The notes under the pieces: generated by a model
The model's input: the letters and a program-made list of their open reading frames with translations, nothing else
What the model was told of the DNA's origin: nothing
Database searches by the model: none
Assembly (NCBI GenBank): GCA_030248225.1
Contig: JASANE010012465.1
Coordinates: 1 to 64,000 of the forward strand
Source of the DNA: Trileptium ribeirensis
Taxonomy: Eukaryota; Nematoda; Enoplea; Enoplida; Thoracostomopsidae
Direction of reading: 5' to 3'
Length of the DNA stretch: 64,000 nt
In this document: positions 5,282 through 51,691 of the stretch, in pieces
Layout: the number at the start of each line of letters is the position of its first letter
Numbering within the stretch: position 1 is the first letter of the stretch
Made by a program: the position numbers and the translations under genes

Positions 5282-5313
5282 GGTTCTATCTTCTGCTGGA
5301 ATACATTAGCAGC

Positions 5314-14200: not shown

Positions 14201-14420
14201 TCCTGTGAAACACGTCTAGTTTAGTATCGGAAATCGTGAATGTCCGCAACTCTGAATCTTACAACAAAAGCGAAGCATTAGTGTTACTGTACATCAGCAT
14301 TTTCATTGCAATTGAAATATTTTTTGCGGGGGGAGGGGGGGCAGTGAAGTTGCTAAGCTGCCGAAATTCGTTGCAGCTTTTATTACCGACTCTGACAGCA
14401 ATTTCATTTGATGTTGCTAC

Positions 14421-15441: not shown

Positions 15442-15473
15442 GCTGCTAATGTATTCCAGTAGAAGATAGAACC

Positions 15474-15856: not shown

Positions 15857-17265
15857 GTAGAACCAAGATAAAATCTACCTGAATTGTATAACTGATATAA
15901 GTAAAATATCGTAGTCATATTAAGCAGGTAGGCAGGAAAGTAAACAGCAGTATCAGACAAAATTTGACTTTGTAATAAATGTAGTGGGACCAATAGGGTA
16001 ACATGCTATCTAGCAAACTTGGAAATCATGTTAAATCCTGACGGTGGTGATATTGAAAAGAGATAGCGAAACACCGCCATACCGGGCGCCTGCTTTTATA
16101 CAGCTGCTTGATGCTGGTACGAAAATAAACGATAATTTGAACCAAACGAATTTGTGTGCGCATAAAGTTTGACAAAAATTGAGTTTGACAGTTTCGTTTT
16201 GCAAACTACGTGCTTCGCTGCGTTCACAAACAGATCAGCAGCACCACAACTACATTGAAAAGGCAGTACAAACTGTGAAGCAAAAATGAGATTGGGTCTA
16301 TTTGTATTAACAAAAACTGACTATGAACGGCTCAAATCCGCACTACCAACAGTTTTAGCACTAATTTGATGCCCTGCAATCTAATACTACAGACCAAGGC
16401 AATTTCGAATTTATCAATAAAAAATAAATTTCCAAGTACCGTTGCACCTTAGCACAAGGCAACATGGATCACTTTTGTTTTAAAGTAATTTAGCATTATA
16501 GAAAAGGAAGATAAATAATGGATATCTGTCCAAAGGCCGTTGCCTCAGGGGAGGGGGCGTCGATAGTTCGGCAAAGGTGAGGTCCTTGAGTAGGGTAAGT
16601 CAGTGGCTCGAAAGCTTTCGAAATTTGCCTTTACCGTTGTCAGCGGAGGATTTTATGTCTGGTTCGTATCGATTCAGCCGATTTTTTACCATTCGACTCA
16701 CATCGTCAATGCGGTTCGAATGATATATATTTATCAAGAAAATTTTTTCGAAAATTTATGGTACACAAAGAAATCGGGAAACAATTTTGTCAATAGATAT
16801 ATTTTTCCAGACAAGGACATCGAGCTGAGTAGAGCGTGAGAGGCCGAAGCGCAGTCTAGTGTGCCGAATTCATTATTCTTCGTTTATAATCCTCAACTTG
16901 ACCACAAAAATGAAAGATTTCACCTTGAGCGGGTTGTTTCGATTTTAAAGATACATTGATACTATTAGTATCGAGCTTTCGACGTGGCTGGAAGACTCAA
17001 TTCAGAACAAGTGCATTTCGACCATATTTATGACGAAACAATATTCCAATTTTTGAGTTACCAATCTGGTACCCAAAATTATCGAAAATTTTTCCGATAT
17101 ATATACAACAGGGAAAACAAATGTAAACAATAATATATTTTGCACTGGCATAGTAATTTTTAGACGGTTATATTTGCGTGAAATATTATGAAATTTTTAT
17201 TACTAATTAGAATTATACTAAAAGCCTATGTGGCGGAATTCCAACCATGTACAAATTGTTGGACT

Positions 17266-17499
17266 TTAATTATAATTGAAAAAACAAAAGATAGACAGCA
17301 AGCATAAACCAAAAATAGAATCTTTGTGCATAACTATGTAATAATTTGCTATTATATCAGCCGCCACAAGATTGTAACGCAGAAAATTGTTTGGACCGTC
17401 GGTATGGCAAATTTTAGCTTGCACATAGACAAAAGTAGTGAAAGGCACGACCAGGTGACCATATCTTTGCGGTAAAACAGTATAATAAGCTATGCTCAT
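17266..17499 (-). repeat. Conserved 77-codon block, right-arm copy
   Basis: The translation is identical to that of 3261-3494. I saw only a single base difference in the flanking stretch I compared by eye. The diverged third copy near 33780-33990 shows that it belongs to a dispersed repeat. Confidence 0.55.
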
Positions 17500-18839
17500 T
17501 TTCTATAAGGCTTTGGGTTGTGCGAAACCTAGGTCTTGCACTTAGTTTAAGCCTGCATGAGACGTTAACTCATTGGTAACACAAATAACAAAAAAATTGC
17601 AATAAGCGTGACCAAAATACATATTTTCTGAACCGCTTCGTCAAGTCGAATAGCTATTACAGTATCTTTAGAATTGGACGTTTTGGGCTGGGTGGATACC
17701 CGAAAAACCCTCTTTAAACTAAATGTAAAAGTCTATTCAATTTTTAGTTCTATTATACTCATCATAAAAAGACAAAAAAATATACCAGAGCACTGTGGCA
17801 TAAAAAATACAAATAAGAACAAATAGAATAGACTTTAATCATCTTTAGCAGCACACAAATCCATAGATAAAGCTCCTTCAGCTGTACTGCTTTCTGCTAT
17901 ATTCTCTGTTATAGTACAATATAGTAGACCAAACTAATTTTATTTTAGAGAGGTTTAGAATATTATAAAAACCGAAACTCGTCTAAAAATAGTTTTCGGT
18001 CACTGGGCACAATAATAAATTGTAGAAAAATACATGCTTTGGTAGCTTCGTTTCGCGAAATGAACACACAAAAAGAGTGACAGTGCTAAATTTTTGCAGT
18101 TGTAGTAGTAGTGGTGGCAGCCTGTAATATCAATAAATTGTGATAATAATATTACGGCATTTAAGATTTAAGAATGAAACTTTAGGATGGTATTTTAAAG
18201 AATAATATACAAAGAATTAAGAAGAAGATTGTTTCAGGCTGGAAAACCAAAGTTGAGCTGGGAATGAATTGTTTTAGTTAAAAAGAAATCCCGGACGTCT
18301 CATGCTATAATTGTTATAAGTAACGTTTAGCAACAAATTAAAGAAGAGACTGAACCGAATATTTATCGGCCGAGCCGGTGCAGTCTAAAATTGGACGAGG
18401 TGCGTACAAAGCTGAGTGAGCTCGCTCGAGGTCCGGCTTGTTTCAAATCTCGGTCGGCCCTGTCCGCTAATCTAACTACTTTTCTTGGTTTTAAGTTTTC
18501 CTGCCAAAGCCACTTGTGACATTTTCTTAGTTATTCCAAAAAATATTTTATCAATCGCGCCAAATAATCAATGGTGTGTTAGGCACATTCGGCTTCTCAA
18601 ATAAAAATCAATATAATTTAAAATGTATATACCATAAAACTACCATAACTATAGGAAGTTTCTTAAGTTACTACATGCCCTAAATCTTCATACCAAATAT
18701 TCGCAACAACGAACCTAAATATTTGGACTCAGTTTCCCAGGATGTCTACAAAAGAAACACCCTTAAATACTTGGTAAAAGCCTTCTCTAATTTAAGCGAA
18801 TATATACAGTTGAAATATGTTTGGAAACATTCTTCATAA

Positions 18840-19061
18840 ATGTTGGAAAATTTCTCAAACTTACTCAGAGCAAAAATGCAGTGCCAAATTGATTCCCAAA
18901 TGTACAAAAACAATATATGCGTCAAGGATATGGAAGCTTACTCAGAATTACCTTGCAAATTACCTAAAGCCACAAACGCCAAACAGTTCGAAGTAACACA
19001 GATTATAAAAAACATTTGCAAATTCTTTGAAAAGTTTGGGATTCCCATTACGGACAAGTAA
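18840..19061 (+). other. Unassigned open frame, right-arm copy (73 codons)
   Basis: The ATG lies directly after an in-frame TAA, so the frame cannot extend upstream. The protein is lysine- and asparagine-rich and matches no family I recognise. The mirror copy (1778-1996) has lost this ATG and differs at about seven residues, mostly by nonsynonymous change. Confidence 0.2.
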
Positions 19062-20852
19062 TAATTCAACATTACTACCTACCTATAATAACGTTTAAGT
19101 GTCACTCTCCACGGAGTGATGCCCCTTGCGTACCTGGTATACCCATGCGGTCAAGCAAGACCACGCTGAAGACGATCGCTTAGAGATATGCTGCGCTAAT
19201 AAGCCCCGGCTAAGCTCACATTTATGTTATCCTTTACGATCAAGGTTTCCGCAGTGTATTTGCTTAACGAAAGTCGATGATAGACATAGGCCAAGTAATT
19301 ATTGCATTTTAGAACCCACTGGCTTTTCTGAGTTGTTTTACTAAATGTAATATAATCGAAGTCCACTGAATGTAACAACGTAAAAATACTAATTACGGCA
19401 ACAGATCTTTTAAGAAATATTGCTGTTATTTCAAAAGCCGCCGAAACTCCGAAACCATGGAACGAATGTCTAGCATCCAATCAAATTGTTTCTCTTAGCT
19501 TCCAGTTTTCAGCGCAAACCAGCAATGAATTACAACACCCTGTAAGGCGATTCAGTCATTTAGAACGCCGCAGTAAATGTACCTGTTATACATAAATTTT
19601 CTTTGGTAATTTTTGACAGAACCGCTGGATAGTCAATTCGCCACGAAGATTTAACAGAGACTACAAAATAAAAAGTACGCGAGCAAACGCGTATTTGAAC
19701 ATTCGTGTAAAAAACAAACTACTGAAAATACACATTTGCTGGAAACTAAAATATAGAAAGATTATAGATATACGTCAAGTATTTTCGGAAGAAAATACAG
19801 CACTAAAATCATCTTTATATCTTATTTATAAATGTTGATATGAACGATCTTCACGACTTTGACCAAATCGATAATCTTAATGCATAGCTTGCTTAAAAAT
19901 AAGCAAATGAGCCAAGACAAAACTGTTTTGCGAAAACTTTGAAACTTATGTTGAAAATTTAGTAAAGCTTAAAGCAAATCTCGTTGAGAATATTGCTATG
20001 AACTACTTAATAACAAGAGTCCTGGTCGGTATCATGTGACCAGTTGGTTCATTTTTGAACGTCACAGTGTTTGTTACCAATGCTGCAGCTGTGAAACTTG
20101 GAGCCTTATTAATTCTATTTAATAAAGTAGCGATAAATAAGATATGTATCACCTATAATCATATATTAAACATATATTTATATATGCATGTATATACTTA
20201 ATATATAAATATATACGTCATGGGTGTGCACAGGATTTGCATTTCGGCAGGGGTGGAGGCGGTCAAATTCACGATTTAAGTTTGGAGAGAATTTTTTTAA
20301 GTTTTGAGGTAGGGTCCGTAGTCGAACTTCTAAGCTGTTTGGCGAGGTGGAAATAGCCCGGTGTCCCCCTTGGATAATTCCCTAATACATATTGGCCTGG
20401 ATGAAAAGGATGAAACATACGAGCAATATTGGCACAACACCTCGCTGGGGTCACGGCGTAGCGGCAGCCGATGGTGAAATTTCAATTAAATAGCTTTGTA
20501 AAGGCTGCTACAGTATAGAAAATATTACGTCGAAAATATAAAAAAACTGCCACCTACGTTATCTTTAGGGAACAGTTAACCAGCAGCATCAGCAGTTCGC
20601 ACTAATAATAACTCAAATAATTCTCAGCTATATATACGCAAGATAAGCATAATTTTAAACAGACACCTAGGAACAGGGGCAGGGCCGCAGCTGACCTCCC
20701 CTATAAATCAAGTCGGGGCACTCCTTCCGTTCAGTTTACCACCCCACCAAATTTTCCAAAATATTTCAGGCACTTTCGGCACACGGGGCTGAGCGGAGTA
20801 ATTACAGAAAGAGTAGGGCTCCGATCCTTAGAAGCTAACCTCTTACTCCTAT

Positions 20853-33248: not shown

Positions 33249-33327
33249 TTACATATTCTTTACCAATGGCAAACTGTGTTTAATCATTTCACACGCAATT
33301 TCAAACAGGTAATCGTAGCATTCGCAC
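33249..33327 (-). CDS. APIP: APIP last coding exon
   Basis: The exon follows the acceptor aaatttcag. Its first G completes the split Met codon, giving [10 protein letters not shown], the conserved C-terminal helix start of APIP. It ends at TAA (33251-33249) after a tail that is shorter than, and diverged from, vertebrate APIP. The upstream intron is 2204 bp. Confidence 0.93.
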
Positions 33328-36300
33328 CTGAAATTTGAGAAATCAAATTATGAGTTTTGAACAGTTGTTACTTTACTCAGTACATCCTCGAACATCAGGA
33401 CGAGCTAATCAAAATAACACGTCTTAATCAACAACTACAACCCAGAAACCAACATCTTATGAAGCGCGGAATTCTTCATGTCAAATTTACTTTGGTCGTC
33501 ACCTTTCGTAGGATCTATGATGAAAATATTTACATAATTTTCATAAATAGATGAGTAACTAAGTGTATAATATTCAGCAATATATCAAATTCACACGCAC
33601 CACCAAATTACCCGTGACAAGTTTACGTTATTCACCAATTTTTGCGAACCTGTCTTGTCCCATTATAAATTTATATTTTAAATAAGATCTAACTAATTTG
33701 CATTGTCAGTTAGCTACTCCTAACAACCATTAGGCCTTTCACTAAATTTGATCAAATACGCAGTTTTTGTATCAAATCCAAACTTTATAGAACATTATGC
33801 TAGTTTACCGCAAAGAGCCCCCTAGTTTGTCTTTTACAATATCTGGGCATGTTCAAGCTCAGTTTCGCGACGGACGGTCCAAACGAATTTCTATTCCTTT
33901 CTCACGTAGATCTCCTGGCGGTTAATATATTGGCAATTTGATTTACATAGCAAGGCATAAGTTCTCAGAATCTAGTTATTTTTGTTGATTATGACAGCTT
34001 CATATTTGCAATGAAATTGGACACGGATAGCTGAGTCGGCAGAGTGCCTGCTTGCAGATGCAAACGTAGAGGGCAGAGGTTTCGAATCCCACCAAGCCCG
34101 ATTTTTCAAGCGGTTGCTTTTCACATCCTTACGCCAGTTCGCATCAATGTTTATACCATGATATCGTGCGAAAACATCGGATACTACTGTGGCCTTGCTC
34201 TGTACCCAGCATCAAAAACCTACACCTTTCCCCCAGTAACTAATTTCACTCTTTCGGCGTTGTAGGCCCCGATATATGAAAATGAAACTGCCACCTGTAT
34301 ACAGCAGAGTGCCGATTTCTATTATTCCTACCGGGTACTACGCTCAGAGTTGCAAATGGAACCACAAGTGGCATCCTTGCAGTCCATTATTTTCGCGCTT
34401 ACGTTACTTAATTTTACAAACTCGGAAGAATGGCATTATAAATCATCTCGATCCCCACTGGAACACCCGCCTTTATGATCAATAGTCCGACGCTTTCCCA
34501 ATTGACCCGCTGAGCCATATATTATGTATAATTGAACGCAGTTCATAAATGTTACAAAATTGCTCATCTCGAAAAGTAAAATTTAATTTAAATAATTTAG
34601 AAATAAAGAGGTAAATTCGCTTACCGTTCTTTATTACTGAAATTATGCTCGACAATAGCGTTTTTGATCATTTTTGTTTATAATTTATGAAATAATTTGC
34701 GGTTATTCAATAAACTACCTATCTATTGTGAATAATAATAAATTTGTTGAGACTTGCAGGTGCGTCGCAAAATGGGTGAGCAGGGGCTTCCGTCGCATCC
34801 CATTTTTTACTGACAAAAATGAAAAAATTAACTGACGGGATTATAACAAAAGTAATCAACAAATCGGCCCCTCGACTTTTTTTGCCAGCCCCTCCACTGT
34901 TAAAAAGCTTGCGGCGCCCCTCAAGACCTATTTAGGATGACATTTGTCAGAAAATTTTATACTATCGCTTTTACTGCGAAATTAGCCAATAGTTAAACAG
35001 AACAAAATAGCCTTCCTAGGTATCGTCCGAGACCTAAAAGGAGCTCTAGATTTATCTGTCCCTTTGTACTATCACCTGGCCTCCCCAGAGAGGGGAAAGG
35101 AGGGCAGGATTTTCGAGTGCCCCTGGATTTCGGGGGATCCCTTAGGTCAATTTTGGTTTCCCCCAGGTCAACAACAGCGCAACAGGTATTTTGTGGTGAC
35201 ATCAAAAATGACCACAATGACAAAAACCGGTTATACCCAAAACTCATCACTACTATTTATATTTCGCATATTTATGACAAAATCCTAAGTAAAATGAATT
35301 GTCTTCTGCAGAAATGCGAAGTTTCAGTAGGTAATATATGAACAGAAACAACAATATACAGGCTGTAAATGCATGAAAAACGCGATAAAATGCAGATACA
35401 AGATCTCACAGTTGACATAGGGGCACAGTTTTCACCAACTAATCTGTGCAAAATTTATATCCGGTATATCGGGTTCCCCGAGGTTGGAGCTGTGGCCCCC
35501 AGCTCGGAGCCCAAAAATAATCATCGCTTACATGGATTTGGCTTGCTGCCATGTATCACCCCATACGTAGACACCATGTTGTCGTACCAACACCGCACAC
35601 GTTTCAGGATATTTAAGCATACATGAAGCCATACTTTCCTGCAAACGATAAGAGTATTGTATAATAACACAAAAGTAGTGTTCATTGACTAAAACTGTTA
35701 CCGTAAAAATCAACATAGAAAAACACAACAAATCAAATGGCAAACACTCAATACAGACAAGCAGCCATCAGCAAAAGGAAATCGTGTATCACCTTTAAAT
35801 ATATATTTCATGTGACACCTAGTTTATAGTAGGGGTCAAAACACGCTAATTTAAAAGTGGAGGTGCACTCAAAAGTGAGGGAAGACTCTATAAAATTTTG
35901 GGAGAGAGGGCGGCTCTCCGTACCACCGAAGTGACCTCCGTCCGCCCCGATTTATGGCTGAACCCCTGGTTTATAACTTCTGGACCTTAGTCAATAGCTA
36001 GTGACCTAAACCTAGAAAACTTTAACTTTTAGGAATTGTATAAAGCGCACGTTTGACATTACCGGAAAGACGTGGTACTCTGGACAAAACAGGGCATTCA
36101 TCTGTATCGAACCAAAAACAGCATATTGCAAAAATCAAAAATCATACGTTTGCCACAGTACTGTATATACCCTGCTGGCATGTTACTGGCTGCAAATACG
36201 AACCCGCATGTAAGTTACCTTCTCAAAACAAATGCCGACCGTGAACATAACGTGTGAAGTACATATCCCGCTGAGAAATAAAACAAGAAATATGTTAGCC

Positions 36301-39300
36301 AAAACTTATGATAAACAAAATATTAACATACACCACTAATTCACTGCTGAATGCCACTATGACTCCACATTAAATACTTTAGTCCCGTCAAATTAATGTA
36401 GCACATATGTCGTCACTTGACAATTCCAATTTGCTGAAGGCTCGTAAAATTATTTACTGAAATAATATATTCACTTCTAAATCCTTTTCTTCGCAAGTGT
36501 TTTCAATTATTGGAACAATCAGCGTTTCATCGAAACGTTTTGCTTTATTCGTAACCTGATTTCGAACGCCTTTAATCATCTCTTGGTGACTAATACGGAA
36601 TTCCGAGCCCTGAGTGAGAATTGTTATTAGATTGGCAAATTTGCTATGGGTATGAATGACCGCACCAGCATCTAAAATATATAACCATGTTTGTGGTTTT
36701 AACCATGACTGACATTAACCTACATTTATTTAAGTTTTTCGATACTATCCCAATAATATTATCAAGAGTCAGCTGTGGGGATTTTGTGTATAAAAGTATG
36801 ACAGTCCGTTGTACCCATGTACTATCAGTTATCCGATGCATGGTCGTTTTTCGTTTAACTCCAGTCCCCAAACGTTTCAGAAGCAGCCGCCAAGGTTCTC
36901 TGCAGTATCGGATGTTTCTAGGTTTCTAAATGGTCGCCTATAACCAATGATGCAAAGTTATAGATTTAAGCTGCAGTTTGAGTATTATATTTTCGGTGAT
37001 GGTCGATTTACCAAACATAATCCCGCTCTTCGACGGGTTTTTAAGCATTCTTTGTCAAATCTGGCCATACGGGTACCAGCGTTTCGCAGCCCATATCTCG
37101 CGGCATAAGCTTCGCATCGAAGAATTGAGACCAACACACAGATTCAGAATCATCTGATCAAGATCTACAACTTTGTTGACCATGATTTTTTTGTGGGACC
37201 ACTCCCTGGGCCGCTATGGACCCGAATATGGTTCGTCGACCCTTCGCCGCAAATTGTGATTTTTCAAATTTCGCCGAATATACTATATCATACATTTCCA
37301 TAGGATTTCAAGGGATTTAGGGTCGATGAACCCGATTTCCAAAGCGTAGTGCGCTTTGATTTGTCTGATTATGTATTTCGGGCAGCACATGAAGAATGGT
37401 CTAGATAGAAATTTTCGAAGGCTGCATACAATGCTTTGGTTAGAGTCCAGCGTGTATATTTAATACCTTTTCGCGGGTGTTCAATGGGTGTAGGGTCAAT
37501 GAAGCCGATTCCCAGAATATAGTCTGTGTGGCATGTTTAGTTACGTATTTCGTACAGGCCATCGAGAATTATCTATATAGGTTTTCCGGTAGGCTGAATA
37601 CAATGGCTTGGTTATCTAGAAACCAGCACAAATATGTGATGCGTCGTCAGTTGTTTTCGATGCGTGTATGGTCCACAAGGTTTTAGGATTTTCAATGGCT
37701 TCAGGGTTCAAGAGGTTTTAGGGTTGTATATACATCAAACACAGTCTGTACAGGCGATTACACAAAATTACTTAAAAATTAAACCACGCTGGTTCCGTAT
37801 CACGCTCACGTGCTAAATACTAGTTTAATTGAGAATATGATTGATTCGGAGCACTAGCTAGCAGGTTGTAAATGTTTTGTTGTATTGTTTGGTGCTTTTT
37901 AATAAAACATGTTATAAATATTGTATTTTAATAGATGAGCTGACTCTTCATACAAATCAGACATATAGTTAAGCTTGGACATTTTTTGTAACCTTACAAT
38001 GCTTCTGAGAAATATTATGGTTACGTACGTTAGAAAATAAGTTTAAAATTGTGGGACAGTAAGCACACAAATCGTTCACAAATCTCACAGCATAAGGGAC
38101 CTGATATCTCGGGTGTTTAGTACCCCTAATGCTCATGCACGCTGCAATATGTATACAGATAAGTAGTCAACAATATCAACTATATCAGTGTTGGAATGGC
38201 TAATTACTTTATGCATTAATAACTACGTCATTTCAAGGTCACTCGGCTCCGTCAACCGAGAAACTGTGTTCAAAGGCTCCCCTTATACTATTAGCGATAT
38301 TTTCAAAAGTCATGGGCTTGAACTTTAGTTACGTTCTCCCTCTTGTTATTGGTCAGACAGCTGACCATATAGTCTCTAACCCTTCGCCTCAGAAGCCTAA
38401 AAACCAGGGACAAGCCCGTGAGAAATACGGACTGAGCTCTGTAAATCATTATAAGATTTCGTATGAAACAATATTGAAATCAGAACACATGATAATGAGC
38501 GCGGAAAATAAAAATGTTTTCGCAGGACTATTTCACCTCACCTCGCATTCGATATTTCGTATGAAACAATATTGAAATCAGAACTCATGATAATGAGCGC
38601 TGAAAATAAAAATGTTTTCGCAGGACTCTTTCACCTCACCTCGCATTCGATATTTCGTATGAAACAATATTGAAATCACAACTCATGATAATGAGCGCTG
38701 AAATTAAAAATGTTTGCGCAGGACTCTTTCCCCTCACCTCGCATTCGATATTTCGTATGAAATAATATTGAAATCAGAACTCATGATAATGAGCGCTGAA
38801 AATAAAAATGTTTTCGCAGGACTCTTTCACCTCACCTCGCATTCGATATTTCGTATGAAACAATATTGAAATCAGAACTCATGATAATGAGCGCTGAAAT
38901 TAAAAATGTTTGCGCAGGACTCTTTCCCCTCACCTCGCATTCGATATTTCGTATGAAACAATATTGAAATCAGAACTCATGATAATGAGCGCTGAAAATA
39001 AAAATGTTTTCACAGGCTCTCCCCCCATCAAAAAAAAAAAAAAAAAAAATGTTTTCGCAGGACTCTTTCACCTCACCTCGCATTCGATATTTCGTATGAA
39101 AAAATATTGAAATCACAACTCATGATAATGAGCGCTGAAATTAAAAATGTTTGCGCAGGACTCTTTCCCCTCACCTCGCATTCGATATTTCGTATGAAAC
39201 AATATTGAAATCAGAACTCATGATAATGAGCGCTGAAATTAAAAATGTTTGCACAGGACTCTTTCCCCTCACCTCGCATTCGATATTTCGTATGAAACAA

Positions 39301-42300
39301 TATTGAAATCAGCAATGGTGATAATGAGCACTGAAATTAAAAATGTTTGCACAGGACTCTTTCACCTCACCTCGCATTCGATATTTCGTATGAAACAATA
39401 TTGAAATCAGCAATGGTGATAATGAGCACTGAAATTAAAAATGTTTGCACAGGACTCTTTCACCTCACCTCGCATTCGATTGAAAAAGAAGAAAAGCGGC
39501 CCCCCCCCCCCGCGGCCCCGCACCCCCCCCCCGCACTCGAACAACGCAACACTATCTCTTTCACCTCACCTCGCATTAGATATTATCGTAATGAAACAAT
39601 ATAAATAATATGGTGATAATGAGCATGAAATTAAAAATGTTTGCAAGGACTCTTTCACCTCACCTCGCATTCGATATTTCGTATGAAAAATATTTAAATA
39701 GAATGGTGATAATGAGACTAAACACAAATAAAAATGCACAACTCTTCACCTACATATATTTTATGAAACAATATTGAAATCAGCAATGGTGATAATGAGC
39801 ACTGAAATTAAAAATGTTTGCACAGGACTCTTTCACCTCACCTCGCATTCGATATTACGTATGAAATAATATTGAAATCAGCAATGGTGATAATGATAAA
39901 TGAAATTAAAAAGTTTGCACAGACTCCATCACCTCACCTAGTATAAATATTTATTATGAATAATATTGAAATAGAATGGTGATAATGAGCACTGAAATTA
40001 AAAATGTTTGCACAGGACTCTTTCACCTCACCTCGCATTCGATATTTCGTATGAAACAATATTGAAATCAGCAATGGTGATAATGAGCACTGAAATTAAA
40101 AATGTTTGCACAGGACTCTTTCACCTCACCTCGCATTCGATACGCATTCATAAACAAAGGGGTGCATTGACTTTTTGTAAGCTTAACGCCAAACCGCGGT
40201 TCCGGAATTTGGATATCGCGTCCTTCAACATCTTGAATGAAAATATCATGTGGCTGAAAAATTATTATTACACGAATTATTCCAATTAGCCAATGAATTA
40301 TTCACATCAGCCTCAAGATTTTTATAGGGGGTTGTAGGTCGACCCCCTAACCCGCTGCGCCAACTCCTTGAACGTGACCAGCGAAACTCTAAAATTTTTG
40401 CTGCACTTCCCCGAGATTTTTCAGGCAATTTCTCACCTCACATTTCTCTGTGATTCGATTTGGTCGTGCATTATAGCTTGTAGTTTTCCGTTATACTGTT
40501 GTATATGTATCGATCTTAATGTGTTAAACCTGTAATAATGCATAATGCATTATATGTGCTATATAATGCGATTACAAGATGAGTATTTTTCGGTATGAAA
40601 TCTCTGAAAATTTTAGGCCAATAAATTCCGGTCTATTACCCAAGGTGCCTATAGTTATCGTATGAGAACATACGATCGTTTGATATTTTTGCTAAATTTC
40701 AAATTTTTATTGCGCTTTTCAAATTTGTTCAGCTATTTTTCTCCAAGGGCTCAAGATTTGAGATAAATCCAGTTCATTTCAATGTTCTTTCGTTCGAACT
40801 TCGAACAGCCAGCTGCGCCAAGTACAACAATTTATGCAAATTGAAACTAATATCCAATCTTTTATAAACGTATGTACAATTTGCTACCCCAAACACAAGT
40901 AGGCATAAACTAAGCTCTGTGCGTGCTAATAATGTCAGATATGATGCTATAAATAAGTCCAAAACGTCGCAACTAATTTTCTTTCAGTCATTACCCGGAT
41001 TGTTCGAGAAGTGTTCGTTGCTAGCTGGAAGACTGTTGTTTTGAAACCGATAGTGGTTTCCGATAGGGAAAGTTGTAGTAGAATACGGACGCTCAAATAT
41101 AAGTATGAAATTAATCGCATTACAATAGGAAGATAGCAATAATGAAAGTATTCGTATGGCCAGCAAACAACACAAATATATACGATTATTTTACAGAATA
41201 ATAGAAGTACATAATGTAAAATACAATTTGGTTATAGCAGATATCATCGCAACATAATATATAAAGACTAGTTTTCAAAGAAATGATTATCCAATACGGC
41301 CATTTTTGTTACTGTCACAAAAAATCTGTCGCATTTATAATCGTCGAATTAAACTCGGATTCTGAAGGCGTGCGCATAATAGTGAAAGGCAAGGACATCT
41401 GTGCATCGAAATATCCGGAAACGATTTTATATGTCCACGATGCCAAGATATCTGGAGACGATTTTATATTAACCGCAACGTCAAGATATCCTCACACCGC
41501 ATCCAGTGACCACGTTCAATACTGTGATGTATTGATGGATTAAGTTGAAATAATTGCAAAAATGCAAATTGAATGATCTTGGGATTATACTAATTAGGTT
41601 TCCTAAATAGCCATGTCGAAGACTACTATATATAAGCTGGTTTTAACTCTCATTTGATGCGTTTTATTTCCACTGCCTTAAGCTCACTGATCGTCGATCG
41701 TCAATAAGTTCAGAACTTACAGTTAACTACAACAAGCACTGACGGGAACAGCAAGTGGCTTGCCATTCAAGGTCAACGAATTATGCCGGTAGAGAAGCCG
41801 CAAAACCTTGATTCTAGGATTGGTTACTATTGTTTTCCTATGACTGTTTGGGAAGAGGTTTTGTACTTGCATCCACATATTGTGGCTTTAAGTGGTCAAT
41901 TTTACTGTACATATATCTTACCGGACCCCGCGAGTGTCATGGGGCGTCTTTATCCAGCAGTTGGTACGCCAAGCAACTCAACTTTGAGCCAGGTAACTTC
42001 AAAACAGATAGGCTCTTCATGGGTAAGAACTTGACGCCATGTCAAGAAGGGGCGACCTCGAGGGCGCTTCCAGCCAGGCATGTCTTTGCTCACCAGTCCC
42101 TGTTTCAAAGTAAGGCGTAAGTCAGGCATTCTGAGAAATTATGGCCACACAGTTGAGGTAGCTTGTACGCAACAGCTATGAAATGGCAGCATCGTGGCCA
42201 CATAGCGCGCAGGCTGACGACTGATCCATAATTACACCCACAGATACCGACCATACAACGACGGCAGTAGGATTCGAATGGATTTATGAAAGCTATGTCC

Positions 42301-45300
42301 TTAATGGTGACAGAATAGGTTTCAGTACCATACAACAGGTCGTCCGGCTGCGTTGAGTTTGGTTGGCAAATTAACTTCTTTATGCGATTAGAGACAGCGA
42401 GATAACCTGCCAAATGCTTGTAGTTCCTTCGATATGCGCACCTGTGCTTCCAGCTTATACTATCCCGTATATATGAAGACGGCTGTAAGGTAGCACACTG
42501 ATTACACCTATTCCAGCATATTGCTGTTCAGCGACACTGACAAAGGCTCTTGGTCGCAACAGACCATTTCCTTTGTTTTAATCTCAAGCCCTATTCGACG
42601 TCCTGCAATGATTAGCCTTTCGAGCATATTATTTAGTTGTGCTGGCGATTCTGCCAGCTTTACAATGTCATCCGCATATTCTAGATTAACGCGACGAGAC
42701 AAGGTATTGGGAAACTTTATTCGCTCCTAGGTGACCGCTGAACTTTCCAATACCATCACATATTTAAATCCAAATAGAAGCTGTGGTAAGATCAAACCTG
42801 TACAGCCTTCGGACTGACCAACATCAGCGCGCACTGAGGAAATTGTATAACCGTACATTAATCTTATGACCGATAGCACTTTTTTGGGCATCCTTTAGGC
42901 TTCCATAATTTGAAACAGGGATTGCCAATGGATTGAGCTGAAAGCAGCCCGAAAGTTGACGAAAGCCACAGAAGTTTTCTGCTTAAATTTACGGCGCTTT
43001 TCATATATACGCCTTAAGCCAAGGAGACGAAATTACTTCATTTGACCGTTTCACGTTACTGGATAGCTGGAAACCCAAGATGCTTCCACTTTTAGAAAGG
43101 TACGGATTTCTGTTCCTTCCTCGTCTTTCCACTATAAACTAATTTATGATGCAGTATTATTTATTGCAGTGAACATTTAACGTACTGAACTAGAATCATC
43201 CACCGTTATAATTTTTAGAAGATTATTAATCTGACCGAGTTGTAACCGAAAACCATGTTGTAATTTCGCATTTACGATGTTTTAAGACTCACAGCTATTT
43301 GTTTCTTTTTAATTCTCAGTTGTCTTTTTGTATTATTTGGATTTTTCAATTCCACACTTGATGTTGCAGTTTGTAACATAACAATGATATAAATAACAAA
43401 ATACGTGCAGTGCCATGGCTATAAATGCGCTCAGGGTATCTATCCACATGGCCTGTCCTGGTTTTGGACCAATCCTATTTTGGTTATTTTAGACGGTTTC
43501 TGTATTTTGAGCAAAAGTATCTTGCGATCCAGGAAAATTTTTTAAATTTGCCACGCTAATTTTTGATGGAATGTGTCATAGTTTGAACTAACAAATTTAA
43601 CCATACAAATCGGGAAACTTCAGAAATTGCATTTTGAAAAGGCAACTTTGTGACGTTTCATATTCTCCTGGACACTTCCTGTCAAACAACGAAAAACCTT
43701 TACTTTTTGTCCAAATTTATGTATTTAGCCAGGCCATTTGGACTAGATCTGCAAGCTGGCAGCTTTGGGACAATCCCGCATTTCTCCCTTCCAGTTCGGT
43801 TCCGACGAGATACCACCATGCACAAAACACGTACAGGCTTTATAAAAACTAAAATACAAGTCCCATCAGGTGAAATTTTCCCTTCCTTTTCGGTCCACAA
43901 TCCCATTATATCTAATTAGTACGTATTGGTTCAATATATCAAAGTACACAATTGCCTTTGGTACATAATAGGTACATTCTTAGTACATAAAACCTTTACA
44001 TCGCAGAAAAGCAAACTGTGCTCCAAGTAATAATTGTAGCACAGCCATCGTGCGTTAAGTGATTTGTACGCACGGTTGTGCGAGTTCAAACGAGTGCGTC
44101 AGCACGAGTTTGAACGAGGTAAACAACACAACCGTGCGTACAAATCACTTGACACACGCCTGCCTGTGCTACAACTGACTTGTAATACAGCTAATTTAGC
44201 TAAACGTGCGTTAAGTCATTTTGATGCACGGCTTTAACTATATAAGCTGTGTTACAAATTATTATAATACACAACACGCACAGAACGAGATAGGAATAGT
44301 TATTTAAGCTTTAATTGTTATTTTTAAGTGAATTGTACACAGCTAGCAACGATAAGCGCTTATTATTAAGTGATATTCTCACAGCACTGTCACCATTTTA
44401 GCAAAAAGAACTACAGCAAATTGGTTAAATAAAAGCTTTTGCTATTTTGATTTAGGTTCTCCGACTTTCTGACTCTGTGGAACTGGAAATCAACACCTTC
44501 GCCAGAACTATGCTAAATTTTTATTCAACATAATCAAAGTAGTAAATAATTATTATGATAAGGATAAATTCTAAATCAACTTTTACTAAATGAAGCGCAC
44601 ATATAATATTGTAGTTTTAGTTAAGGATTTTTAGACAAAAAATAATGTTGCTTTGAGCATAGTTTATTAATAAGACTAAATGATTTATAAATGGCCTTAA
44701 ATTTATTAAGAATTTCCTCCAAACATACGAACCCGTAACTCACAACGGCTTAAATTGGATTTTTCTGTACTAAACATTCGGTCGCCTTAACGAAAATATG
44801 TTAACGTTATACTGTTTGCTGCGTTCCCCACGATAGCTTCGATAAGCTTATTTCCACTGGCTTGTTTCTATTTTAATACGAAAACTCCTAAAGCTACAAT
44901 CAACTTGAATGCGTTCTTCTCAGTATGTTAACGTTATACTGTTTGCTGCGTTCCCACGATAGCTTCGATAAGCTTATTTCCACTGGCTTGTTTCTATTTT
45001 AATACGAAAACTCCTAAAGCTACAATCAACTTGAATGCGTTCTTCTCAGTATGTTAACGTTATACTGTTTGCTGCGTTCCCACGATAGCTTCGATAAGCT
45101 TATTTCCACTGGCTTGTTTCTATTTTAATACGAAAACTCCTAAAGCTACAATCAACTTGAATGCGTTCTTCTCAGTATGTTAACGTTATACTGTTTGCTG
45201 CGTTCCCCACGATAGCTTCGATAAGCTTATTTCCATTGGGCTTGTTTCTATTTTAATACGAAAACTCCTAAAGCTACAATCAACTTGAATGCGTTCTTCT

Positions 45301-48300
45301 CAGTATGTTAACGTTATACTGTTTGCTGCGTTCCCCACGATAGCTTCGATAAGCTTATTTCCACTGGCTTGTTTCTATTTTAATACAAATGCGAAAACTC
45401 CTAAAGCTACAATCAACCTGAATGCGTTCTTCTCAGTATGTTACTCGGCACAATTTTTAATGGATTTACAAACTTATATTACCTCTGTGATAATGCGTCA
45501 GTTTCGTGTTAATCACTTCCTATAGACCAAAAGAATTACCAAAAATAGGAAAACTACATTTTACCCAGCAATAATATGTGACCATACAACTGCTATAACA
45601 AAGTCGAAGTGCTGCGACATTTTTGATATTTTGGATATATATGACAAATACGGTTGGGTTCCATCAGGGTACGCTGTCGAATTTTGCCACGAAAATATTA
45701 GAACTTATTTGAACAGCTTTAAAAAGACACTGTCCGATATCAATATTGCGCTGAATTAAGTTTCCGTGATGTACAAGTGGTGCGCTTAAATAAAACCTCG
45801 AAAGGAAGTCACCGATTTCATGAACGAATTAGAACTGTTAGCCAGTGAACTGTGGTGTATTTCCGGAATAGTCGATGTGTCATCAGGTTCGACGCCGCTC
45901 ACAACATCATCGGGCGCCGCAATCGTCAATATGCCTTCAAGTTTAACCCCATTTGCAACAGCGTCTTTGTCCGCCGCAGTTGCCAATGTGCCTTAAGGTA
46001 CGGCGCCGTTTGCGATAACCCCGTCGTCCATCGTAAATGTGAATCAGATTTCAGATTTGTCGCTGAAGCTAAGTCAGCAGATTTCGCCGTCGATGTGCAC
46101 TCACACCAACGGCGCAATACAAGTTCATCAAAATTCTGCTGGTTCCCATGCAGTAGTAGCAGTACGTTTTACATGGCGTCTGCTGACAATGACAAGCAAC
46201 GACGAGCAGGTCTTTGCAAAAACGGACAGTCCGTAATACTATAGACGAAGAACGATCTGAAAGCGGTGACATCGATTCTGATGACAGCACGCCGATGAAA
46301 TAACGAAATTAAGAGATGCAAGAATGACGTTGGTACTGATGATGGCATGGCAGTAAACCGTAGTAAACTCTCGAGAACGCGGAATAAAATACCAGGGCCT
46401 GTTTCGTTGGCACGGAATGTTTAATAAAATGGCCGTTTAGCTGGTCAGATATACATTTCGATATATGAAAAGTTATGGGTGGACGACAAATTTTGCCTTA
46501 TGAGTGCTTCCGTAAAAAGAAGCGCATGGACTCTATTTTGCGGAAAAAAGATAAGCACTATCTGACGCTTATTACTCACATAATGCTAAAAAGTCTCAAT
46601 ACAAATTTTTGCTTCGACAGCAAACGATAGCGAAAGTAGACCGACATCTATCACAAAGTGATAACTAAGTTCACAACGGCCGTCTCGTTATACTACAATA
46701 TAAGAGTCGATGACAAAGAGATTACGTTTTGCGTTAGTTTTTTACTAGCTACATTGGGTATGTGAAATAATAGCGCTCTGATGTGACAATGTACTTCGAT
46801 TCTTGCGGGGGTCAAACCGGAATGCACTTTAATGAAACCGAAGCCCCGATATTGACCTTAAATTTCTCTACTCTTGATATTCAGTGATGAGAATAGTTTC
46901 AATATACGCTATGATGAAAGGGTAGAAAATATCAACGTGTGATTTATCCTGGTACGTAGGCTCTTGATATTCAGTGATGGGAATAGTTTCAATATACGCT
47001 ATGATGAAAGGATAGAAAACATCAACGTGTGATTTATCCTGGTACGTAGGACTCTTGATATTCAGTGATGGGAATAGTTTCAATATACGCTATGATGAAA
47101 GGGTAGAAAACATCAATGTGTGATTTATCCTGGTACGTAGGACTCTTGATATTCAGTGATGGGAATAGTTTCAATATACGCTATGATGAAAGGGTAGAAA
47201 ACATCAATGTGTGATTTATCCTGGTACGTAGGACTCTTGATATTCAGTGATGGGAATAGTTTCAATATACGCTATGTATGATGAAAGGGTAGTAAACATC
47301 AACGCGTGATTTATCCTGGTACGTAGGACTCTTGATATTCAGTGATGGGAATAGTTTCAATATACGCTATGATGAAAGGGTAGAAAACATCAATGTGTGA
47401 TTTATCCTGGTACGTAGGACTCTTGATATTCAGTGATGGGAATAGTTTCAATATACGCTATGTATGATGAAAGGGTAGTAAACATCAACGCGTGATTTAT
47501 CCTGGTACGTAGGACTCTTGATATTCAGTGATGGGAATAGTTTCAATATACGCTATGATGAAAGGGTAGAAAACATCAATGTGTGATTTATCCTGGTACG
47601 TAGGACTCTTGATATTCAGTGATGGGAATAGTTTCAATATACGCTATGATGAAAGAATTATTACCAACATATAGATAAGCAGATACATGGTAGAAAACAT
47701 CAATGTGTGATTTATCCTGGTACGTAGGACTCTTGATATTCAGTGATGGGAATAGTTTCAATATACGCTATGATGAAACGGTAGAATACATCAACGTGTG
47801 ATTTATCCTGGTACGTAGGACTCTTGATATTCAGTGATGGGAATAGTTTCAATATACGCTATGATGAGGAACATCATGTGGTATTTACCGTCCCTGACCC
47901 CCACCGACACCACGTGATTTATCCTGGTACGTATGACTCTTGTTATTCAGTGATTGGTATAGTTTCAATATACGCTATGATGAAAGGGTAGAAAACATCA
48001 ATGTGTGATTTATCCTGGTACGTAGGACTCTTGATATTCAGTGATGGGAATAGTTTCAATATACGCTATGTATGATGAAAGGGTAGTAAACATCAACGCG
48101 TGATTTATCCTGGTACGTAGGACTCTTGATATTCAGTGATGGGAATAGTTTCAATATACGCTATGATGAAAGGGTAGAAAACATCAATGTGTGATTTATC
48201 CTGGTACGTAGGACTCTTGATATTCAGTGATGGGAATAGTTTCAATATACGCTATGATGAAAGGGTAGAAAACATCAACGTGTCATTTATCCTGGTACGT

Positions 48301-51300
48301 AGGATAAGATAAAGTCAGTCAGTAAGGTAGTCAAAATTTATGCGCCACAGGACAAACCAAAAATATTACGATAGTAGAACACACCAACAAATATATAAAA
48401 GTTAAAGACATTAGCATCAGCTACTATAACGAATAAAAACAGGGCATTATCTGGTGCCGAATTAGATTATGACTACAAAAGCGTTCATTACTGAAAATCG
48501 GACCAAAATTCTATTTTATGGAGGATTAAGTATAGCGACGGTGGTTTTTAACAACTAATTGTTATAATTTGGTGTTTGCACTCGTCGTAAAAGTGGTGAC
48601 GCAGAAAACTATAAACGCACCCATAACCTGAAGATTCAGACAAATGCAAATAAGTGCAGATATCTAATTTCACTAATTGAGAGTGGAATCATCCCGAAAT
48701 ATACGGCATTGCAGACTACTACTGATTACTGCCGTTCATTAGGAAACACGGCCACGTCCCATATATTCGTTCGACAACGGACTGGAAATCCACAATGAAT
48801 CGTTCGTTATGAACGCAATAATCAACCCATGAACAGTTTAATTTCACTTTTAGCTGGAAAATTTAAATATTTCACGTCACCGATACTATTTTGATAACTC
48901 TACTGTTTCTGATTAATTTCTTAGACAAACAGTTCAATAGCAAGGTTTTCGCCAGCAATTTTAGGCAGCATGCTCATTTTTCAATGAATACAGCAATTGT
49001 ATGCGACAGTAGATAGATGACAACAGCCCAGTGTTGATTCTGATGTTCACAGTTCTATTTTTAAATCCAATCAGAGACAAAAATGGCACAGTGCTTCGAC
49101 CGGATTATAGCTCTGACATATGACAACTCAACAGTCAACATGCAGAGGAGTTGAACTTTAAATATTTGTTGATCCAGGGCGGAGATTCGTTACACTGCGT
49201 TGTATAGCTGCTTATGAGGGATATTGGGGTCACGCCTCCTCATGGTCGGACCCCTTCCTGCCTTAAAGCCACATCTAGCCGCTCTCATACCACCATCACC
49301 CTGCCCCGCAAGCGAAAAACGCGCGGACAATGTTTGAGACTTTTAGCAAACTTTGGGACAAAATTTGGTGAAAATTACTATATAATACTGGCCTGTCCAC
49401 AGCAATCCGAAAAGTGTGGGGGGAACTTCGGGGGCCCCATGTTCATTCTCAGGGGAAATTTCAAAGTGGGGGGGGATAAATTGTGCTTAAAAATACAAAA
49501 TATTTCCATTGTGAACGTACTTTCAAGCTAAAAACAATATTTTAGCATTATAAATAGTGGTAATTAATGTTTAAAAACAATTTACAACCAAAGAACATAA
49601 ATTTTCAGACATAAAAAATTTTTGGAATTAGTTGAACATGGGGGTTTCGGCCGAGTAGGGGGGACGGACATGGGGGAAAATCTCACGAACATGGGGGATT
49701 TGAAAGTGGGGGTCCCCCCACTGTGGACAGGCCAGTAATAGAAAATCTTGGAAATTTAGCAAAATACAAGAATATAGGCTCCGTTTTAGCAAAACTTGCG
49801 GGCTCCATGCGCCCACCCCAAGCTCATTTTTGGGTGTAATGACCACAAAGACCCACACCCCCCATTTTACGCTAGTATCCACATCTACCCATGATGCTAA
49901 AATGTTATCCTATTTTCAATTTGCAATAAAAATGTTAACACGACCCTGAATTGGTTAACAATAACTTAGGCTAACAATACTCTGCTTAATAACTGTTCAG
50001 TTAGACGCATGTACCATACACGCACAGTGAGACAAATGCGAAGACAATGCGTCATGTTCAGAAACGGTGCCATAACTCCAGGTATGTAATAAATTGTGTC
50101 ATAACCAAGATATTATAAGGTAAATAAAATAGCTTAAACTAGTAACTTGCAAGCGAGGGTAAAACAGAGTAAACATTGTTTCACCAAACGGTAATTTTGT
50201 GAAATCACCTTCCAACAGGTTTATGTTTGATGTATCTATTACACTACAACCTCTGCAGCAGTGCGCCCATTCAAACCCGTCGAGCCTAACCCGCCGAAAA
50301 CGAAAACGCACAAAGTATTCGTATTTTGTGCTAGACAACTAAAAACCATCGTATCCAGCGAACCGAAAAACCTATACATAGAACATTCTTCATACCATTT
50401 ACGCAATACGTAAGCAAGATACTAAAAACAAACCACATTCTGACAATCGGGTTCATTGAACCTGAACCCATACATGCCGAAGCAGGGATCAGGTAGTCTA
50501 CTCTCTCAGGCCTCGGACCCCCGAGTGCCTGGCCTACCCAAATACCTTACCTTACCCCTCCCTGAGACTCGCAACCGTCCTCTCGACTTCGCACACGGCG
50601 TGCGAAATTTTTTTGCCACAATGGGGGAAAATTGGAGCAAAAATTCGCGAAAATGAGGGTGCGACGGGGTAGAGGAAGGTCGTCACCGTTTTGTCACCAC
50701 AACAACATCTCCCACGCCGACCGCGGCTACCCTAAAGACATCGGAGCGTCAGCATCTATGCCTTAGATTCGTTGAAAACATCCGAAGAGGTGTGACATAT
50801 GCGTGCTCGACTCTTGGTAACCAAACCATTGTATTCAGCGTTAAGAAAAATCTAAATCTAGACCATTGATGCCCAGCACGCAATACACACAATCAAACAA
50901 ACGAAAACACGCATTTTTGCAGTCGGATTCGTCGACCGTAAAACCCTTGAAACCCTATGAAAAGTTATAGTATACTCAGGTTGGACTCTAAACAACAAAA
51001 CCATTGTATTCAGCGCACTTGATAACCTAATAGACACCCGTTGTAAGGCAAAACACAACATGCAGAAATATGAAAAATTGCTATTTCCGGTGAAGGGCCC
51101 ACGAGCCATGTTTGGGCCCACAGGACCCAGGGAGTGGTCCCACAAAAACGTCGTCTCGAGGAGCTGATCCTGTATGGTGGTCTCGGTTTTTCGATGTGAA
51201 GATTGTGTCGCGAGATATGGATACAAAGCCTGGTACCCACTCGCACGGCCAAATTTAGCAAAGAATCCTTATAAAACTTTTTTTGCCATTTTGACCCCGA

Positions 51301-51691
51301 AAATGGGACCGGAGCTGTTCGAAAGGATATATCCTAATCACTTCTGCTATCGACAAAAACATTTTATCGAAATCCATCCACCCGACGTTGAGTTTTATGA
51401 ATGAAGAAACGGACAAAAAATTTTCTCACGATTTTCCTGCTGCATCCTCAGTAGAAACTCCGTTCGCTCCGTTTTAATAAATAAACGATAAAATGATATG
51501 ATTAAATAAATTTTTCTATAATATATATAGATTTTAGCAATGCTTACTAAAACTCTTTCTTTCTGAACGCCCGAGGGTGCGATATAGATTTCGTTGCCCA
51601 GTCGTACCGATATGCCACCGCCAGTTCCAGTAACCCAGCCAAGCCAATAAAATTGTTGTAGCAATTCAGGAATTAACACTGCTGGATCCTC
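33249..51691 (-). CDS. APIP: Methylthioribulose-1-phosphate dehydratase (APIP/MtnB), five of its coding exons
   Basis: The enzyme dehydrates 5-methylthioribulose-1-phosphate in the cytosolic methionine salvage pathway. It is a zinc enzyme of the class II aldolase/adducin fold. Exons at 51691-51548, 40253-40130, 36671-36475, 35638-35532 and 33327-33249 join in phase (intron phases 0, 1, 0, 2) with AG acceptors and GT donors, giving 216 residues to a TAA stop. Visible landmarks are [30 protein letters not shown] (substrate-site Cys), the zinc ligands in AGAVIHTHS, the catalytic Glu of HQEMIKG, and the third zinc His in [12 protein letters not shown]. The order and catalytic residues match animal APIP, and no stop or frameshift is present. 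Only the short N-terminal exon is missing; it should lie above 51692. The gene looks functional. Confidence 0.95.
33780..33990 (+). repeat. Diverged copy of the 77-codon palindrome block
   Basis: This matches 3285-3490 in order ('ttaccgcaaaga', 'gacggacggtccaaacga', then a shared tail), with many substitutions and indels. It lies inside an APIP intron. Confidence 0.6.
34029..34110 (+). other. tRNA-like sequence (probable SINE head)
   Basis: A box A-like 'tagctgagtcggcagag' is followed by a box B-like 'ggtttcgaatcc' (one extra base against GGTTCGAATCC) and 'ccacc'. The anticodon stem does not close properly. This is therefore a degenerate tRNA-derived element rather than a working tRNA gene. 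Confidence 0.5.
34444..34522 (-). other. tRNA-like sequence, opposite strand
   Basis: The minus strand reads GGCTCAGCGGGTCAATTGGG (a box A-like D-arm), then a GTCGGACTATTGATCA anticodon-arm-like region, then a degenerate box B. The T-arm is broken, so this is a pseudogene or SINE head. With 34029-34110 it forms two tRNA-like ends in opposing orientation about 400 bp apart. Confidence 0.5.
35532..35638 (-). CDS. APIP: APIP coding exon carrying the third zinc histidine
   Basis: Acceptor tttgcag and donor GTAAGC bound a 107-bp exon ending on a split Met codon (phase 2). It encodes a [20 protein letters not shown] stretch in which His of RQHG is the conserved zinc ligand. Confidence 0.95.
36475..36671 (-). 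CDS. APIP: APIP coding exon with HTH zinc motif and catalytic Glu
   Basis: Acceptor atattttag and donor GTGAAT bound a 197-bp exon. It starts on the last two bases of a split Asp codon, giving [17 protein letters not shown] and VPIIENT follow, as in animal APIP. No stop is present. The exon is 836 bp from the next one. Confidence 0.95.
36672..38454. other. APIP intron, non-satellite part, with repeat family X copy 2
   Basis: About 37060-37700 is a copy of interspersed family X (see 23380-23720), including the 'gaatatggttcgtcgaccc' segment. It also has a partial internal duplication of a 'ggtttcaatggg..agggtcaatgaa' type module. The rest shows nothing recognisable. Confidence 0.55.
38455..40142. 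repeat. 98-bp satellite array abutting an APIP splice donor
   Basis: About 17 units have a 98-bp period (for example 'gatatttcg' at 38551, 38649 and 38747). Read on the APIP strand, each intact unit contains TATCGAATGCGAG, identical to the last 13 bases of the APIP exon, followed by GTGAGGTGAAAG, the exon's splice donor. Each also has a TTTTTATTTTCAG or TTTTTAATTTCAG acceptor-like tract. Two sequence subfamilies exist: 'gaactcatgataatgagcgc' units are distal, and 'gcaatggtgataatgagcac' units are next to the exon. Homopolymer runs at about 39016-39050 and 39500-39530, and ragged deletions at about 39600-39760 and 39890-39970, look like poor consensus. Confidence 0.95.
40130..40253 (-). CDS. 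APIP: APIP coding exon with substrate-site cysteine
   Basis: Acceptor tttttcag and donor GTGAGG bound a 124-bp exon (phase 0 in, phase 1 out). It encodes [13 protein letters not shown] and [16 protein letters not shown]. The Cys in SQCTPLF is the substrate-site residue of the family. Its 3' end coincides with the edge of the 98-bp satellite. Confidence 0.95.
40254..42104. other. APIP long intron, distal part
   Basis: This is AT-rich. A plus-strand frame at 41283-41543 contains a short internal direct repeat ('gaaacgattttatat' and 'gagacgattttatat'), but resembles no family. No gene was recognised. Confidence 0.4.
42105..43050 (-). pseudogene. Non-LTR retrotransposon (LINE) reverse-transcriptase remnant
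   Basis: The landmarks fall in order on the minus strand. [17 protein letters not shown] segment leading into the motif A region lies near 42930-43000. [15 protein letters not shown] (motif B region) lies near 42800. The YADD box, in [13 protein letters not shown], lies at about 42650-42690. A C-terminal LLYGTET lies near 42320, followed by a CRRCMVGI segment. Stops and frameshifts separate the pieces. The LLYG-ET block resembles RTE- or CR1-type LINEs. It lies within the 11.3-kb APIP intron, in the same orientation as the gene. Confidence 0.8.
44034..44174. mobile_element. Hairpin element (foldback or MITE-like)
   Basis: TTGTAGCACAG at the left and CTGTGCTACAA at the right begin an inverted repeat of about 45 bp. 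It includes AAGTGATTTGTACGCACGG and its complement, with a short central part. A second partial copy of the 'cgtgcgttaagt' module follows at about 44205-44240. No transposase is present. Confidence 0.75.
44798..45437 (+). repeat. 126-128-bp tandem repeat, five copies
   Basis: Units begin with ATGTTAACGTTATACTG at 44798, 44925, 45051, 45177 and 45305; the last is 133 bp. Differences are mainly single-base indels (CCC/CCCC) and one 5-bp insertion. It lies inside the long APIP intron. Confidence 0.95.
45590..46850 (+). other. Decayed coding-like tract of unknown origin
   Basis: A 50-codon open stretch at about 45600-45760 is interrupted by TAA. It is followed by a Ser/Thr/Ala-rich open stretch from about 45820 to 46150 with one internal stop. 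The composition reads like a broken transposon protein, but no diagnostic motif is visible. The frame at 45852-46244 overlaps it in another frame. Confidence 0.3.
46870..48303 (+). repeat. 91-bp tandem repeat with higher-order structure, about 15-16 copies
   Basis: The unit runs from 'actcttgatattcagtga' to 'atcctggtacgtagg', with a 90-91-bp period. A 95-bp variant carrying 'gctatgtatgatgaaagg' and 'gtagtaaacatcaacgcg' recurs at about 47271, 47459 and 48067, between ordinary units. Two units are interrupted, at about 47655-47690 and 47865-47910. The array lies in the APIP 11.3-kb intron. Confidence 0.95.
48304..49385. other. APIP intron sequence, nothing recognised
   Basis: This is AT-rich DNA between the 91-bp array and the TIR element at 49388. 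No motif or reliable frame was found. Confidence 0.4.
49386..49737. mobile_element. Small TIR element flanked by TA
   Basis: CTGGCCTGTCCACAG (from 49388) and CTGTGGACAGGCCAG (to 49735) are perfect 15-bp inverted termini. TA sits on each side (49386-49387 and 49736-49737), the target duplication of Tc1/mariner-type elements. The 348-bp interior has G-rich runs but no transposase. Confidence 0.85.
50340..51300 (-). repeat. Interspersed repeat family X, copy 3
   Basis: On the minus strand it reads the same ordered modules as 37060-37700: 'cttcacatcgaaaaaccgag', then 'ttttgtgggaccactccctg', then 'ggttatcaagtgcgctgaat'. The 'ttgtgggaccactccctggg' segment is shared almost exactly with copy 2. Confidence 0.7.
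51548..51691 (-). CDS. APIP: APIP coding exon with glycine-rich phosphate-binding motif
   Basis: Acceptor gttttatag and donor GTAAGC bound 48 whole codons. It encodes [22 protein letters not shown] and [12 protein letters not shown], which are hallmarks of MtnB/APIP. It begins at the position of the E in the animal EHPR segment, so only a short first exon remains to be found upstream. The following intron is 11294 bp. Confidence 0.96.

Follow-up and report, generated by a model that had tools for sequence, protein, structure and literature searches.

In the nematode Trileptium ribeirensis, the gene for methylthioribulose-1-phosphate dehydratase (APIP) carries, at the 3' end of one of its coding exons (E3), a tandem array in which the end of the exon and the 5' splice site (donor) that follows it are repeated. 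We regard it as probable that this is a local minisatellite laid across the E3 boundary, whose first donor is the one used while the remaining copies (decoys) stay mostly silent under exon definition. The window analysed here is the first 64 kb of contig JASANE010012465.1, which is 121,931 bp long and belongs to an assembly of 687 Mb in 20,229 contigs.

The APIP gene and the end of exon E3

Five minus-strand exons of APIP could be recognized in the window by tblastn and exon joining, all of them bordered by GT-AG as set in this analysis. They are listed here together with the elements of the E3 boundary (a slash marks a splice border); the placement of E3 rests additionally on frame and conserved residues.

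51548..51691, minus strand: exon E2, upstream of E3
40130..40253, minus strand: coding exon E3, 124 nt
40142-40130, minus strand: last 13 nt of E3, which form the exonic portion of unit 1 (frame, conserved residues)
40121..40132, minus strand: E3 donor as placed by the frame of the joined protein, GAG/GTGAGGTGA, first intron base 40129, score 11.5
36475..36671, minus strand: exon E4, next after E3, acceptor TATATATTTTAG/AT
35532..35638, minus strand: exon E5
33264..33327, minus strand: exon E6, its 3' end provisional and placed at a GT

The joined product of the five exons (212 residues, the first exon and the exact C-terminus not being fixed) matched human APIP (4m6r) with an E value of 1.5e-89 over query residues 1-209 of 212. 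Among the 120 of 3,493 relatives listed, identity reached 69 percent at 97-100 percent coverage, and the named proteins were all from animals, belonging to many phyla. This whole-length alignment places the product in the APIP/MtnB group of the class II aldolase family, in agreement with the identification given in an earlier note on this DNA. When the protein was searched against the whole assembly, the five matches obtained were the five exons of the window; as assembled, the gene is single.

The same note had joined exon 40253-40130 to 36671, and this junction held: connecting 40130 to 36671 preserves the reading frame and yields conserved APIP residues. In an alignment of 22 sequences (including 21 of the 120 listed relatives), A91 is invariant and Y86 and R89 are nearly so, while the D at position 90 is also present in four aligned relatives (P0096, P0110, P0111 and P0120). 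The idea that a repeat had replaced the exon end was rejected, because the 13 exon bases encode conserved residues. Also rejected was a donor shifted 5 nt downstream (GTGAG/GTGAAA), which breaks the frame and leads to a stop at codon 106, after 105 residues. To judge from the sequence, the conserved reading frame thus places the true donor at 40129, where it would be the first of the array.

Structure of the array and its splice-site motifs

Each unit of the array consists of the last 13 nt of E3 plus 85 nt of intron that start with the donor. The main features are as follows, first intron bases being given for donors and the first base after AG for acceptor-like sites.

38455..40142, minus strand: tandem array of 17 units, each about 98 bp long (86-143 bp in the assembly), which mostly start with the exon-end copy TATCGAATGCGAG
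38540..40031, minus strand: 16 decoy donors, at 40031, 39937 (TAG/GTGAGG), 39841, 39749 (TAG/GTGAAG), 39663, 39569, 39468, 39370, 39272, 39174, 39076, 38933, 38835, 38737, 38639 and 38541
38599..40089, minus strand: 13 acceptor-like sites, at 40089, 39991, 39801, 39717, 39428, 39330, 39232, 39134, 38991, 38893, 38795, 38697 and 38599
39496..39569, minus strand: interior of unit 7, taken over by a segment containing G/C runs (plus strand: C12 and C10), possibly poorly assembled
39026..39076, minus strand: 45-nt insert in unit 12 with a 20-nt homopolymer (A20), bounds approximate, possibly poorly assembled

The array takes up 1,675 of the 3,458 nt (48 percent) of the E3-E4 intron. The count of 17 units was obtained by cutting at the donor motif; nine units are exactly 98 nt long, and the last measures 98 nt once trimmed. 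Irregular lengths, due to indels or inserts, are confined to units 2-7 and 12 (in unit 4, to one 6-base gap only). The last unit is complete and is followed by unrelated sequence; the start and the end of the unit share one base (T). When a 33-nt core pattern was searched in the window at a tolerance of 3 mismatches, 14 matches were obtained; 100 dinucleotide shuffles gave 0.00 on average.

The motif GAG/GTGAGG is exact in 15 of the 17 units, the true donor among them; units 3 and 5 carry the variants TAG/GTGAGG and TAG/GTGAAG, so that 14 of the 16 decoys (all except 39937 and 39749) are identical to the authentic site. In four units GTGAGGGGAAAG stands in place of GTGAGGTGAAAG. The earlier note had described a 98-bp unit with 13 exon bases and a donor, an array beginning at the true exon end, a roughly 17-fold duplication of the 5' splice site and a row of decoys after it. 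The unit alignment and the frame bear all this out, provided that the true donor is counted among the 17. In conservation, the donor motif is the top one of 90 nine-base windows when all 17 units are compared, and comes fourth (with ties) among the 90 in units 3, 5, 6 and 7; this ranking, biased by the units having been cut at the motif, was not used.

Clean units fall into three variant types, i.e., units 1, 8 and 9 (0-1 differences from one another), units 10, 11, 13 and 15 (1-3 differences), and units 14, 16 and 17, where units 14 and 16 differ at one position and unit 17 at 3-4 from either. Units 1, 8 and 9 are separated from the distal units by 6-12 differences.

Donors were scored with a human weight table. 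On this scale the E3 donor is the strongest of the five scored in APIP, the other four giving 3.4-7.6 (the last border having been set by a GT). Between 33000 and 52000 on the minus strand, 15 sites score at least 11.5, and 15 of 15 lie in the array; the whole 64 kb holds 17 such sites on the minus strand and two on the plus strand. As a control, we scored the consensus units of tandem arrays (period of at least 40, at least 2.8 copies) in the window plus 21 other stretches, 271,931 bp in all, six of the stretches coming from the same contig. Two of the 16 resulting rows represent the present array, with 11.5, and the other 14 do not exceed 7.9; one array may yield more than one row. The assembly also contains three U1 genes above the Rfam cut-off. 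Read by eye, the five best hits include two with an unchanged U1 start ACTTACCTG, namely L040 and L039 (the latter on the reverse strand), and both exceed that cut-off. An Rfam search of the window itself at gathering scores found nothing.

Use of any of the 16 decoys would add 20 residues and then a stop at codon 110 of the joined frame, after 109 residues; the outcome is the same for all, because the first unit that is read through already contains the stop. Retention of the E3-E4 intron ends at the same codon. A frame-breaking outcome is supported for 16 decoys out of 16; the earlier note had foreseen a shift of frame for the pseudo-exons.

The acceptors need a more guarded description than the "good acceptor" 40 bp after the donor of that note. 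An acceptor-like AG is kept in 13 of the 17 units, 40 nt from the donor in 11 of these 13, 32 nt in one and 85 nt in one. The form that had been quoted, TTTTTATTTTCAG, is present in three units, whereas TTTTTAATTTCAG is commoner (nine units) and one unit has another form. However, unit acceptors occur at background frequency: in this AT-rich gene, 150 sites between 33000 and 52000 on the minus strand score as high as the commoner unit acceptor or higher, 13 of them in the array, and the resulting density of about one per 127 nt equals that of the array (13 in 1.69 kb). Unit acceptors lie 22-24 nt from the AG before them, as against 35-56 nt for the five true APIP acceptors, a shortening due to the AG-rich donor motif lying in the unit. 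A yTnAy branch site falls in the AG-exclusion zone of none of the 13 unit acceptors, as compared with two of the five true ones, a test that discriminates poorly.

The segment from an acceptor to the next donor is the predicted 58 nt in 10 of 13 cases, but 54 nt in two and 52 nt in one. That inclusion of such pseudo-exons would be disruptive is correct for 12 of the 13 taken singly, which give a stop, as do all 78 pairs and all 286 triples; the 54-nt pseudo-exon after unit 2 behaves differently, as discussed below.

Which donor would be used

The APIP pre-mRNA would offer one true donor and 16 decoys, nearly every copy being a strong U1 site. According to Carranza, Shenasa and Hertel (PMC9225289), exon definition applies to exons whose flanking introns exceed about 250 nt, and among comparable donors such exons favour the upstream one; in five minigenes with two identical strong donors, the upstream one was used exclusively. 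In minigenes whose donors had been weakened, skipping prevailed for the larger exons; the minigene acceptor was strong. An older, intron-centred proximity rule, discussed in the same paper, would favour the last donor, which is the opposite prediction.

Because both introns flanking E3 are long (11,294 nt for E2-E3 and 3,458 nt for E3-E4), and given the published upstream preference, the first donor of the array is predicted to win regardless of the number of copies behind it, which is to us the probable reason that the array is tolerated. E3 would be recognized by exon definition, and the donor nearest to its own acceptor, namely the first, would be paired with it. Leakage to any decoy would append the extra residues and the stop, and the transcript should then go to nonsense-mediated decay. 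Pseudo-exons would be disfavoured in turn, with the donor motif filling the place needed for the branch point.

Several points weigh against this reading. The choice of donor in E3 is something we infer from the sequence. How the spliceosome treats the array, posed as an open question in the earlier note, can be called partly answered in print by the upstream preference with long introns (PMC9225289), but that rule was measured in human data and two-donor minigenes, and may carry over imperfectly to 17 donors in another organism. The acceptor of E3 itself scores 2.4, below the 3.8-6.9 of the unit acceptors, which would favour pseudo-exons, and the 54-nt pseudo-exon after unit 2 is in frame and open. 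The U1 start is altered in three of the five best hits (L038, L041 and L042), one of these being above the Rfam cut-off. Finally, the exact copy number of the array is uncertain, given the irregular units 2-7 and 12 and the homopolymer runs.

An alternative would be that the array works as a splicing attenuator, with decoys used often enough to matter and copy number setting the share of APIP mRNA that premature stops remove. The identity of 14 of the 16 decoys to the true donor, the early stop they all share and the intron-centred rule (PMC9225289) speak for it; nonetheless we deem it unlikely, since both flanking introns are far above the 250 nt beyond which the upstream donor is preferred (PMC9225289), and strong loss from a single, conserved gene should be costly. 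A more specific version, in which the array is a copy-number rheostat whose donors retain U1 and, to an extent that depends on the allele, channel APIP pre-mRNA into transcripts with a premature stop, appears improbable to us; if true, repeat length would tune methionine-salvage capacity.

We also considered that the array might be an assembly artefact, the true allele having few or no extra copies and the rest being inflated or distorted by misassembled reads. This would account for the indels and inserts in units 2-7 and 12, and for the fact that the window's only two G/C runs of at least 9 and its only A/T run of at least 11 fall inside the array; moreover, the same contig opens with a 10-kb palindrome of doubtful reality, and the mean contig is about 34 kb. 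The clean units, however, form coherent variant types with graded distances, unlike random errors, and six of the eight G/C runs of at least 10 in a genome sample lie outside the array. Homopolymers are accordingly weakened as a proof of misassembly, and an artefact seems to us quite improbable.

Still less probable is that the units are on their way to genuine exons or introns, through intron gain or exonisation by tandem duplication. Thirteen donor-acceptor pairs are available, the unit acceptors outscore that of E3, and there are published cases of an intron gained in potato by duplication across a boundary (PMC4974935) and, among human paralogs, of new introns derived from repeats at exon borders (PMC2812944). 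But the 40 nt between donor and acceptor in 11 of 13 units is far below the introns of this gene, yTnAy is within reach in 0 of 13 (by the poorly discriminating test above), and the stops from pseudo-exons, single or combined, make this outcome very unlikely.

Origin of the array, precedents and neighbouring features

When the 1.8-kb stretch with the array was searched against the 687-Mb assembly, the one match was the stretch itself; a second allele did not come up. At a tolerance of 3 mismatches, a 27-nt core matched 15 times in the whole assembly, always within the array, while a control with the pattern written backwards gave 0; such repeat counts are lower bounds, and DNA searches of this type pass over very common words. 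The array thus appears to have been born here by local duplication, no match to its core having been obtained at any other place in the assembly. Conserved residues are encoded by the 13 shared bases, which gives the direction of copying as from the gene to the array. The opposite course, i.e., insertion at the donor of a pre-existing dispersed satellite or transposon replacing the exon end, might be suggested by other tandem arrays within the same APIP gene (44797-45443 and 46870-48304), yet it is hardly tenable and was rejected, with the core restricted to this locus and the exon bases encoding residues conserved across animals.

The word "satellite", used in the earlier note, proves to be loose by the same core search. 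Satellite DNA forms large or many arrays in a genome, and here there is a single 1.7-kb array; a minisatellite is a head-to-tail repetition, at a single place, of units some 10-100 bp long, a definition that suits the 98-bp period, the 17 units and the single locus. One tandem duplication, with the 1-bp overlap at its ends, may have been followed by expansion and homogenisation through unequal exchange, and the variant types of the clean units look like the product of such a history. The growth of the array would be understandable if, as we suggest, the first donor is unaffected when copies are added on the intron side.

In the human gene IFI6, a minisatellite with a 12-bp unit gives an in-frame insertion. 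The IFI6 (6-16, G1P3) minisatellite, reported by Turri, Cuin and Porter in 1995 to provide several splice donors, is the nearest precedent of the APIP array, in that a tandem repeat at an exon boundary supplies multiple donors (as cited in PMC2572611 and PMC4526556); as in repeats of this kind, the donor of every APIP unit corresponds to the authentic site, exactly or, in two units, as a variant. In IFI6 the downstream donors are reported to be used, with two downstream repeat units and three mRNA species (PMC4526556). The APIP array differs in its 98-bp unit with 13 coding bases and in every decoy leading to a stop.

Among human paralogs from segmental duplications, internal tandem repeats that lie on exon-intron borders are similar in that minisatellite expansion changes splicing choices (PMC2812944). 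Those repeats average four 30-bp units in large paralog groups, with 27 intron modifications, nearly all RNA-supported, whereas the APIP array, described here from its sequence, has 17 units of 98 bp in a gene of which the assembly shows one copy. In the potato RdRp gene, likewise, a duplicated boundary-spanning segment copied splice signals, and one acceptor-side duplication made a new intron that is used (PMC4974935); the APIP duplication is instead on the donor side and repeated, and its copies are putative splice sites. The minigenes with competing identical 5' splice sites share with APIP the equal donors after one acceptor and the long flanking introns, but they are engineered and have two donors, while the array is natural and has 17 (PMC9225289).

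What sets the APIP array apart is the combination of 17 copies, coding bases within a 98-bp unit, a gene that the assembly shows once, and a stop after each decoy. We found no published report of it in the open-licence literature, judging from titles and abstract openings among the matches listed. The array represents a natural test of donor choice, identical donors having so far been tested as engineered pairs (PMC9225289). With the true donor at the head of the row and an identical premature stop tagging each decoy, the exon-centred and intron-centred rules could be set against each other with far more competitors.

Other repeats occur in the APIP intron upstream of E3. A 126-bp repeat (44797-45443) has about five copies and no strong donor in its unit; a 91-bp repeat with a 186-bp higher order (46870-48304) is arranged in several blocks, its best donor scoring 7.9, on the plus strand. 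The same intron holds a minus-strand open reading frame (42508-42726). It contains a YADD motif and is presumably a reverse-transcriptase fragment.

The palindrome at positions 1-20852 has arms 1-10227 and 10504-20852 separated by a 276-bp spacer and 95.5-96.9 percent identical. The arms differ by 305 substitutions (169 transversions and 136 transitions), and 72 of their 87 gaps are 1 bp long. As it sits at the start of the contig, a fold-back chimera is possible. Elsewhere in the assembly, a COX1-like sequence with stops (L036, 1501-1962), located inside a 69-kb contig, is probably a nuclear copy of mitochondrial DNA. Three tandem arrays of 106/212 bp, apparently in both orientations, lie further along the same contig as the window, at 97.5-102.8 kb (L018, 3539-8786).

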